Below are positions 35,999 to 38,485 of a DNA stretch of 64,000 nt, in pieces. The first letter of the stretch is position 1; each line of letters starts with the position of its first letter. The stretch comes from Methanosarcina vacuolata Z-761 (lineage in GTDB: Archaea > Halobacteriota > Methanosarcinia > Methanosarcinales > Methanosarcinaceae). The position numbers were made by a program, and so were the translations under genes. The notes beneath the pieces are model-generated. The model ran no database searches and was not told where the DNA came from. It was given only the letters and a program-made list of their open reading frames with translations. The DNA lies in contig NZ_CP009520.1 of NCBI RefSeq assembly GCF_000969905.1, forward strand, positions 3,782,001-3,846,000, written 5' to 3'.

Positions 35999-36781
35999 TT
36001 ACGTATACGTGTTAATGTAAGAGTCCTGCAACTGCCGGATATATTTTTCAATATGGGGTTTATATATAGGATTTATTTTGTAGATTATGCTTCTTCCTTC
36101 TTTTATCTCTATTATAAGGTCATTTTCTTTGAGATTCTTCATATACCAGCTAATTGTTGGCCTGGAAACTCCAAATTCTTGTGCAAGAGCTACATTAGTG
36201 TTACAATTTCCATTTATTATCTCTATAATTATTTTTTGGTTAGTTAAGTTTTGAAGAACAGAAATAACTTTTTTTTCATCCTCATTGTAAACAAGAAGGT
36301 TTTCAAAATACCTTGTCTTCACACCGTCTTTATAGGATTCAATCTTTTTATTAGCTTTAAGGGTTTTAATGTGATATTTTACTATTTCTCTATCTAAACC
36401 AACCTGTTCTACAATTTCACCAATATATGCTCCAGGTTTGGTTTTTATATATCTATAAACTCTAAAACGGCTGGAATTTTCAAGTACATTCCCAGGATTT
36501 ACAATTCGATATCCAACTATTGAGAAAAAAAGTTTCTTAGGGTAGAAAAGGTCAACTGTGGCTAAAATATACATCATACCAAGCCATAACAGAAACTGCC
36601 AGTAGGATATTTCAGTGACCTCAAGCTCTGTTACTTCTTCTCCGTTAATTGGGACTCCTACCTGGTCGCTTGAAATGGGTTGTACTATATACTCATGAGC
36701 CTCAGATGTTGATATTAAAAGAACAAATGAAAAAAATAATAAACAGAAGATGAGCTTTTTTTGAAGCTCAATGATGCGCAT
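35999..36781 (-). CDS. Membrane-anchored protein with two winged helices
   Basis: About 260 residues. The start MRIIELQKKLIFCLLFF is a signal or anchor; a second hydrophobic helix is at YWQFLLWLGMMYILATV. The cytoplasmic part has a first winged helix (GAYIGEIVEQVGLDREIVKYHIKTLKANKKIES) and a second (NTNVALAQEFGVSRPTISWYMKNLKEN). This looks like the membrane-tethered regulators found in Methanosarcina. ATG 36781 overlaps the end of the PPC-like gene by 14 bases; the longer start at 36823 overlaps it more deeply and is unlikely. It could sense an extracellular signal or redox state and act on transcription. Confidence 0.78.
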   Translation of the reverse strand: MRIIELQKKLIFCLLFFSFVLLISTSEAHEYIVQPISSDQVGVPINGEEVTELEVTEISYWQFLLWLGMMYILATVDLFYPKKLFFSIVGYRIVNPGNVLENSSRFRVYRYIKTKPGAYIGEIVEQVGLDREIVKYHIKTLKANKKIESYKDGVKTRYFENLLVYNEDEKKVISVLQNLTNQKIIIEIINGNCNTNVALAQEFGVSRPTISWYMKNLKENDLIIEIKEGRSIIYKINPIYKPHIEKYIRQLQDSYINTYT

Positions 36782-37076
36782 AGACTTTAAATGTGTAATC
36801 CTCATTTCCATGGACAGATACACCTTTTACCTTGAACCTCCAGACTCCCGATTCCATACCATATCGAGAGGATATCTTGAGGCTTATTTTACCGTCTACT
36901 CCTTTTGGATCATCCTTATCATAGTAGGTCCTAAGAATGTGTCCTTCAGGGTCATAGGGACTAAGGGACAGTTTACTTTGTGTATTTCCCCAATTCAACA
37001 TCAAGGTAAAAGCAGTTGTTCCTGAAGGTACAGTTGCTTTGTGAACTTTACTCTGTCCCTGCTTTATGTATGTCAT
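36768..37076 (-). CDS. PPC-like beta-sandwich protein without signal peptide
   Basis: 102 residues: ATVPSGTTAFTLMLNWGNTQSKLSLSPYDPEGH, then GVWRFKVKGVSVHGNEDYTFKVY, a pattern of the bacterial pre-peptidase C-terminal domain, usually found in secreted proteins. No signal peptide is visible, so it may be a secreted domain whose leader was separated, or a cytoplasmic version. ATG 37076 overlaps the TAA of the small acidic gene (TTA on the plus strand at 37076-37078). It lies between that gene and the membrane HTH gene in an overlapping three-gene set. Confidence 0.7.
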   Translation of the reverse strand: MTYIKQGQSKVHKATVPSGTTAFTLMLNWGNTQSKLSLSPYDPEGHILRTYYDKDDPKGVDGKISLKISSRYGMESGVWRFKVKGVSVHGNEDYTFKVYAHH

Positions 37077-37237
37077 TATGGCACCTCTTCTTCATCTTCT
37101 TCTTCCTCTACCAAAATAGGAGAAAGTGAGATTTCAGAACCAGGAGACATTTCGTTCAAGCGTTCGACAATGTATTCTTTTCCGGTAGAAGTCAAAATAA
37201 CTTCCCCATGTGAGTCTACTAAGTTCGAAGTTGTCAA
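37076..37237 (-). CDS. Small acidic protein, 53 residues
   Basis: This gene is too short for routine gene finding. TTG 37237 is preceded by GGTGAT and gives MTTSNLVDSHGEVILTSTGK, then YIVERLNEMSPGSEISLSP and an acidic tail of seven Glu/Asp. Its TAA overlaps the ATG of the PPC-like gene (TAATG), and a TATA-like TTTATATACC (minus strand, about 37267-37276) lies 30 bases upstream at correct spacing. The context strongly supports translation, though the family is unknown. A possible alternative is that it is the leader part of the PPC-like protein, with the two frames having been split. Confidence 0.6.
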   Translation of the reverse strand: MTTSNLVDSHGEVILTSTGKEYIVERLNEMSPGSEISLSPILVEEEEDEEEVP

Positions 37238-38485
37238 AGTATCACCAAAAAAAAGGTGAAAAGAACGGTATATAAATCTTTTGATTAAGTATTAAATAAA
37301 TTAAATCACAAGATTTTTAAAAATTGTATTTTATATTTAGTCTACTATTTAATGTACAATTTTTAACCATAAAGTTGATTATACCTGATTGATACTATTC
37401 AGGCACCTTGAATCTGCATCGAAAGCCGTAATTAAAAATGTTTGGCATTTACAATACACTTCCGTCTTTTTTTTAAACTGATGCCAAATGATGCCATTTT
37501 TTAATTTTGCGATGAGTCCCTTATTAGAGAAAGATCCGTATAGCCAAAATCGATATCATTTGACGTATTTATGGTATCTATATAGTAACACATGGTTTTA
37601 TTTATAATGTATACGAGTCATATTTTTTCATAAATGAAATTTTTCGATATATTTATTAAGTATACTAACATAACGCATCCTCTTTTTCTATATATTGGAA
37701 GGGATCACTATATATATTCAAATTATTTAACAGTTTTATTGTTAACCTCTGTAAAATCCCTGGTAATCCATGAAACATATCCCTGTCGCACTACAGATTT
37801 TTTGGTACATTGCCAAATTTTCTGGCAATATCCAGAATTTGCGAGTACCAAACATCCCCCACATAGGCATTTCCACATATTGGTTTCTTTTCTGAATTCT
37901 CGATATCCTCATTACACTGAACCCAACCAAAATCTCTCATGAGCCTAAAGCTCTCCTCCAGTTGTTTTGCACCGCACTCTATTGCATGGTCAACTGCGTA
38001 GACAAACTCTGCCCGGTGCGGATAGGAAACAGCAAATAAAAAGAAATGGATAAAGAAGAATGAATATTTTCGATGAAAGTGCCTCCAAAAATTGAAGAGT
38101 TTTTTGAAAGTGAAAAATTTTGCGCTGAAATTTTTTGATGGCTAAACATTAGCTACTTTTATGACTATCTCAAAATAAGTATAAAGATAAATTCAACTTT
38201 ATTTGTGATTAGTTCAGGTTTTAAGTTCAGGTTTAAATAATTCATGAGAAAACAAGCATATTGTGGGGCAATCTACTACAATTGCAGCATGCATTTTGTG
38301 ATCATAAAAAGAGTTCATCCCAAAACAAGTCTCATTTTCACATTAACAAGAGTCAGGATTAATTTCATATTCTAACTGGTTGATCATTTAGAGTTTGAAA
38401 ATTTGGAGACCCATTCTAAATTTTGTTGGGATACACTCATACATTATAAAAGCCGTAATCAGGAGAGAGGTATAGGATCGAAAAA
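37238..38485. other. 1.2-kb spacer
   Basis: Apart from the TATA-like box at 37267-37276 and the relic at 37791-38030, I see only AT-rich sequence and no complete gene. The promoter of the ADP-ribosylglycohydrolase gene is in the last 150 bases. Confidence 0.5.
37791..38030 (-). pseudogene. Possible gene relic (C-terminal piece)
   Basis: Reading the minus strand to TAG 37791, the frame gives PHRAEFVYAVDHAIECGAKQ, LEESFRLMRDFGWVQCNED and GNAYVGDVWYSQILDIARKF, a very protein-like amphipathic composition in an AT-rich spacer. No start codon with a ribosome site is present at its N-terminal end; the first Met (MRDFGW) would leave only 50 residues. Another frame upstream has IFGGTFIENIHSS, so a broken gene is more likely than an intact small one. 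No family recognised. Confidence 0.4.

Follow-up and report, generated by a model that had tools for sequence, protein, structure and literature searches.

A split locus of Methanosarcina vacuolata probably derived from a two-gene sensing cassette found in methane-cycling archaea

We report here that a locus of Methanosarcina vacuolata Z-761 probably represents, in derived form, a sensing cassette of two genes that occurs in methane-cycling archaea. Taken as a whole, this explanation accounts best for our observations, and we hold it with reasonable confidence. The locus lies within a stretch of 64,000 nucleotides that is termed the window. In the usual form of the cassette, the first gene is predicted to encode an exported protein composed of a leader, a short linker with a Y-x-V-x-P motif and a jelly roll of the subtilase/PPC type. 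The second gene is predicted to encode a membrane-held regulator that carries a matching Y-x-V-x-P peptide at its mature N terminus outside the cell and two winged helices inside; this architecture is taken from sequence and models, and its sidedness is deduced. The jelly roll would most likely bind a surface ligand as well as the external segment of the regulator, and ligand binding would then alter the action of the regulator on DNA. In the window copy, the first gene appears to have lost its leader and then to have been cut between linker and domain. The cut would leave the domain free and yield a separate peptide of 53 residues, both presumably co-translated by means of a TAATG join and an internal ribosome-binding site.

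Layout of the locus and origin of the 53-residue ORF

Three overlapping ORFs had been described for this locus, and reading the sequence bears them out on the minus strand (37237..37076, 37076..36768 and 36823..35999). The TTG start of the first ORF and the GGTGAT and TATA-like box ahead of it are likewise present. The features are as follows, with regulator residues counted from the farthest GTG.

37269..37286, minus strand: BRE/TATA-like promoter element AATCAAAAGATTTATATA, read from the sequence
37241..37246, minus strand: GGTGAT, ribosome-binding-type site ahead of the TTG, read from the sequence; identical string in G023
37076..37237, minus strand: 53-residue acidic ORF with TTG start, corresponding to the N-terminal linker now detached from the PPC gene
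37163..37177, minus strand: EYIVE peptide, which corresponds to the Y-x-V-x-P motif seen in relatives
37082..37087, minus strand: GAGGTG, ribosome-binding-type site for the PPC ORF, within the end of the 53-residue ORF
36768..37076, minus strand: PPC-like jelly-roll domain protein of 102 amino acids, without leader
35999..36823, minus strand: predicted membrane-anchored regulator, 274 amino acids from the farthest GTG
36698..36754, minus strand: N-terminal hydrophobic segment of the regulator with a signal-peptidase-like end, residues 24-42
36605..36697, minus strand: presumed external segment of the regulator, HEYIVQPISSDQVGVPINGEEV.., bearing the matched peptide, residues 43-73
36542..36604, minus strand: predicted transmembrane segment of the regulator, residues 74-94 (helix 74-93 in the model)
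36299..36484, minus strand: winged helix 1 of the regulator, residues 114-175 (Pfam HTH_20; pLDDT blocks 85-96 from residue 121)
36074..36283, minus strand: winged helix 2 of the regulator, residues 181-250 (Pfam HTH_24; pLDDT blocks 92-95)

The stop of the first ORF and the ATG of the PPC ORF overlap by one base (TAATG), and GAGGTG is located five bases upstream of this ATG; the matching site reads GAGGTGCCCTAATGACA in G023, a second Methanosarcina genome. For the regulator, ATG 36811 or ATG 36781 is at least as likely a start as the farthest GTG. The PPC gene and the regulator overlap by 44 nt with the former and by 14 nt with the latter, the range across all starts being 14 to 56 nt. A promoter string of the form AATCANAANATTTATAT stands at the same position in seven of the nine leaderless copies described below. 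The element is degenerate in a further one (L027), and none was seen at the corresponding place in the leaderless copy L080.

The original prediction considered the 53-residue ORF to be an independent small acidic gene, a view that our comparison does not sustain. The usual PPC protein is encoded by one ORF of about 150-190 codons comprising a leader, a linker that contains, for instance, the peptide YIVSP, and a jelly-roll domain, and this one-ORF form was seen in nearly all intact copies that we read. The 53-residue ORF corresponds to the linker of such relatives, EVILTSTGKEYIVER resembling EVILNSTGENYIVSP of L032. The apparent trio is therefore a pair with a split first gene, and we reject an independent acidic third component. 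When the same arrangement was sought in other Methanosarcina, as had been suggested, we found the split in G023 with a sequence of its own; an acidic ORF is present there too, so that the ORF is not confined to the window and the lack of conservation that would have spoken against the original prediction was not observed. Because the window and G023 share the split yet differ in sequence, a sequencing error is rejected as its origin. Since the TTG start, GGTGAT, TATA box, TAATG join and regulator all recur in G023, the three-ORF arrangement is not a product of chance.

Two other readings of the split were considered. In the first, programmed -1 frameshifting joins the 53-residue and PPC ORFs into a single protein; relatives do have one ORF, and the PPC frame is -1 to the first ORF. 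However, by eye there is no slippery heptamer ahead of the stop, the PPC frame of the window is closed five codons ahead of its ATG, and the position of GAGGTG, five bases before the stop-sharing ATG, suits a restart. We thus consider frameshifting very unlikely. The second reading is a toxin-antitoxin type module, in which an acidic small protein overlaps a basic partner. The 53-residue part has 14 D/E and 2 K/R and directly precedes, with the TAATG overlap, a 102-residue protein that has 9 D/E and 14 K/R. However, both match parts of one exported protein that precedes a membrane regulator across the phylum, and neither matches a toxin or antitoxin family of Pfam or NCBIfam at E<=1. Pfam returned no family for either protein, and NCBIfam a single irrelevant row (E 0.28) for the 102-residue protein. 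A module of this type is hardly credible.

Leader loss and the state of the split copies

That the PPC-like protein has no signal peptide, as initially stated, is confirmed here: the maximum hydrophobicity of the 53-residue part is 0.59. Nine Methanosarcina copies, among them that of the window, have no PPC leader, and only the window and G023 copies of the nine are also cut. Maximum hydrophobicity of the N-terminal parts is 0.37-1.18 in the nine, as opposed to 2.2 or more in 47 of the 50 others; the three low exceptions have a disrupted start (L012), a frameshift (L023) or a position at a contig end (L049). In a tree of 65 regulators, the partners of the nine leaderless PPC copies form one clade (100/100), inside which the window and G023 regulators are sisters (100/99). 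The simplest reading is that the leader was lost once and that the gene was split once afterwards. As a derived state within one nine-member clade, leader loss implies that a plain extracellular-sensor version cannot be assumed for the window copy. Judging from the sequence, the peptide and domain of this copy, if translated, should be cytosolic, and the peptide of the regulator should be outside, so that the two should not meet, a conflict that speaks against our explanation for this copy. Most likely, if we may speculate, the free peptide and domain would bind each other and act inside the cell, for example on regulator that has been made but is not yet inserted into the membrane.

At the start position, the nine leaderless copies read TTG, TTG, ATG, ATG, GTG, ATA, ATA, ATA and ATG. 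The three with ATA, where relatives carry ATG, GTG or TTG, are L037, L038 and L039. These three therefore have no standard start codon at that position, and ATA may either be an unusual start or mark inactive copies.

The split copy could be a decaying pseudogene, with its leader lost, its frame broken, the 53-residue ORF a relic and only the regulator in use. PPC copies do break often, and a frame-by-frame reading showed four of them to be disrupted. Two of the broken copies, L009 (in-frame stop) and L077 (frameshift), are interrupted at the same junction of linker and domain without an evident restart; the TAATG restart sets the window and G023 copies apart from them. Among 12 loci picked for a broken or short PPC part (L158-L169), where the PPC partner is broken, truncated or, in five, reduced to the last ~36-40 codons, the regulator is still open in 11. 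The regulator can therefore do without its partner, and of the two, the sensor is apparently the one lost more readily. Decay would also fit ATA at the start position in three of nine leaderless copies, as well as dN/dS between the window and G023 for the 53-residue ORF, which at 0.83 (95% 0.36-2.44) is not distinguishable from neutral.

By contrast, dN/dS between the same two copies is 0.34 (95% 0.19-0.59) for the PPC ORF, which argues against decay; the regulator has 0.30 (0.19-0.46). The 53-residue ORF and its G023 counterpart differ by an in-frame gap of three codons and share 16 consecutive codons around EYIV without an amino-acid change, a run equalled in 275 of 20,000 shuffles. Moreover, the split, TTG, GGTGAT and TAATG recur in G023, and none of four neighbor proteins from the window was found in the 12 kb around the G023 cassette, where only ~1.3 kb of contig lies on the 5' side. 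A conserved neighborhood of the cassette is rejected on the same count (0/4). Overall, we judge a pseudogene to be unlikely and favor a derived copy of the cassette.

Occurrence of the pair and the peptide shared by its partners

The host genome contains two further PPC-regulator pairs. Within the genus, the window PPC protein was matched in 23 of 30 genomes. When PPC matches are counted regardless of length, a regulator match is located 3' of 64 of 73; for those of at least 280 nt the figure is 48 of 54. In the reverse direction, a PPC match lies 5' of 58 of 68 regulator matches. These counts refer to matches on the same strand within 400 nt in the 3' direction, with E<=1e-6 for PPC and E<=1e-15 for the regulator. 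Gaps from match to match are negative in 29 of 49 cases. For other families of the phylum, we chose by hand 40 loci in related genomes from among the phylum-wide PPC-profile matches. In 38 of them a membrane regulator or a match to the regulator profile lies 3' (20/20 high-scoring and 18/20 lower-scoring loci). Both genes are found, for example, in Methanosarcina sp. DH2, Methanolobus psychrotolerans and Candidatus Methanoperedens nitroreducens. PPC-profile matches are present in 79 of the 185 genomes from the order and in 114 of the 392 from the phylum, with up to nine matches per genome and with fragments and domains of giant proteins counted in. The original suggestion of a signal cassette, with a beta-sandwich protein as binder and a membrane regulator as reporter, is thus compatible with the family and with a pair conserved across the phylum; the acidic gene, by contrast, is not independent, and the export signal is lost in the window copy. 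In our view, how methane-cycling archaea sense surfaces and their surroundings is poorly understood, and the distribution of the PPC part makes the cassette a candidate for a main sensing route.

Several observations accompany this survey. When viral contigs were scanned with the PPC protein of the window, a single query that reaches close relatives only, no relative was found, and we reject a viral origin at this level. L003 (205-1422), L012 and L019 represent a second cassette type in Methanosarcina, and the genes beside it resemble M24-type peptidases. L073 is a cassette on a contig labelled Bacteroidaceae; because its regulator falls within Methanosarcina in the tree, the label is probably a binning error. 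In G035, G037, G072, G088, G114 and G158, PPC-profile matches lie inside open frames of 889-1861 codons, which are probably large surface proteins.

Both partners carry a similar short peptide. The pattern [GEDN]-Y-x-[VI] occurs in 50 of 55 PPC linkers and in the segment of 51 of 55 regulators, where shuffled sequences average 2.4 and 1.5, respectively, and in both partners of 49 of the 55 pairs. These pairs remained from 73 distinct PPC ORFs after rows without a full linker or segment had been dropped, and the split window and G023 pairs stand outside them. Among the six misses, L003, L029 and L126 differ at the residue ahead of Y, the peptide of L027 and L037 lies beyond the searched stretch, and both partners of L062 read VKPA. 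Across the 52 pairs that could be aligned, similarity is greater between own partners than after re-pairing (0/5000 globally and 3/5000 within clades), the clades being drawn by hand and the relatedness of pairs remaining in the tests. Where the partners share a residue, they use the same codon in 81 of 212 cases, with 81.8 expected. Given this chance-level identity, gene conversion or a DNA operator behind the shared peptide is rejected, and the match between partners is read as one at the protein level.

The peptide stands shortly behind the presumed leader in both proteins and might thus be a general export or processing signal for the cell machinery rather than a partner contact. Such a role would also agree with the weak position-wise match of own partners within clades (1560, 1757, 203 and 1803 of 5000 for positions 1-4). 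Against it, own partners agree at the fourth residue in 30 of 52 pairs, compared to 9.9 upon global re-pairing and 26.8 within clades (203/5000), and L027 has CIIEP in both partners. Furthermore, the leaderless clade keeps the peptide, still matching between partners (YIVE/YTVE, CIIEP/CIIEP), so that some contact with the regulator or with a common third partner probably persists there. We regard a general signal as rather doubtful and prefer a contact between partners.

In our reading, both shared peptides would fit a single site. Tentatively, and as a possibility that we would not expect to prevail, this could amount to co-component signaling by peptide mimicry throughout the phylum in archaea. 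Pair-specific Y-x-V-x-P strands would compete for one jelly-roll groove, the ligand would decide whose strand occupies it, and in the window the strand would now be a separate 53-residue gene. If this is true, then the separate strand gene of the window lineage is a natural dissection of the switch. In any case, the matched peptide makes partner choice directly testable, and the split copy provides peptide and domain as separate units with no need for engineering.

Fold, regulator and comparison with known systems

The label PPC-like probably suits the family: in our alignment A2, PF04151 is matched at E<=1 by 13 of 17 members (best 2.7e-7). The 102-residue window protein itself matches no Pfam family at E<=1. 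The first member of A2 scores 23.5 bits, below the cut-off of 25.9. A model of a one-ORF relative has a mean pLDDT of 63, with 66-86 in the domain blocks and under 50 in the linker, and its Y-x-V-x-P motif is disordered (pLDDT under 50) and undocked from the domain (17 rows), a point against our explanation. The best Foldseek rows for this relative are the jelly roll of subtilisin Tk-SP (E 1.6e-5, TM-score 0.42 by query length), and a profile search retrieved the same entries as weak matches of some 60 residues (E 0.42 and 0.5). With VIA-align, Tk-SP reaches Z 8.2 (rmsd 2.6, 94 residues). Several carbohydrate-binding and many unrelated jelly rolls score higher, up to Z 9.4 (rmsd 2.5, 100 residues), and the ligand is therefore not readable from the fold. 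The PPC domain of the cassette thus resembles the subtilase/PPC jelly roll of Tk-SP, but here the protein is small, stands alone and has no protease. In PMC3599501, the Tk-SP jelly roll is reported to bind two Ca2+ ions. By its sequence, the conserved acidic loop of the PPC family (D118, D121) could bind Ca2+ likewise.

A regulator with two winged helices and membrane anchors had been predicted, and Pfam, model and hydrophobicity agree with it. Pfam matches HTH_20 at residues 114-156 and HTH_24 at 193-237 (E 1e-11), and pLDDT is mostly above 90 across the winged-helix part. The N-terminal hydrophobic segment forms a helix (13-39) in the model, with a hydrophobicity of 2.95 and an Ala42 that is invariant in 19 rows. 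Conservation in the protein is especially high in the stretch behind this presumed leader, A42, E44, Y45, V47, G56, G61 and E62 being invariant in the 19 rows. The external peptide is doubled in the regulators of L078 (3400-4293; EYIIFPAPGRQAEATEYIVTP), L055 and L132 (GYEVVIG..GYEIVLTP).

By its transmembrane region and DNA-binding domain, the regulator is predicted to be a transmembrane transcription regulator (TTR), the combination by which PMC10269533 describes this group. TTRs are reported there to be enriched in Methanomicrobia. That paper names ToxS and TcpH among such partners; its sections considered here do not describe the PPC-regulator pair. Our search of the open PubMed Central literature found no treatment of the pair.

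The closest comparison is with the bacterial co-component systems VtrA/VtrC, ToxR/ToxS and TcpP/TcpH. According to the sections of PMC9214523 considered here, in which archaea are not mentioned, these consist of adjacent, often overlapping genes for a membrane-tethered DNA-binding regulator and an extracytoplasmic sensor partner. Similarly, the archaeal cassette is an adjacent, commonly overlapping gene pair (48/54, 58/68 and 38/40 loci; 29/49 negative gaps), and its winged-helix regulator is, as predicted from sequence and model, membrane-tethered. The sensor partner of co-component systems is extracytoplasmic; here, the PPC leader is present in 47 of 50 other copies and absent from nine including that of the window. 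There are also differences. Co-component regulators have the order winged helix, transmembrane segment and external domain, whereas the order here is leader, external peptide, transmembrane segment and two winged helices; the sensor gene is downstream there and upstream here. VtrC is lipocalin-like, whereas the partner here, usually with a leader, is probably a jelly roll, judging by the best fold rows, and a peptide shared by both partners distinguishes the archaeal cassette. Because domain and gene order are reversed, we do not classify the cassette as a homologue of VtrA/VtrC. By analogy, ordinary copies of the cassette most likely work as a co-component receptor that is like VtrA/VtrC in principle.
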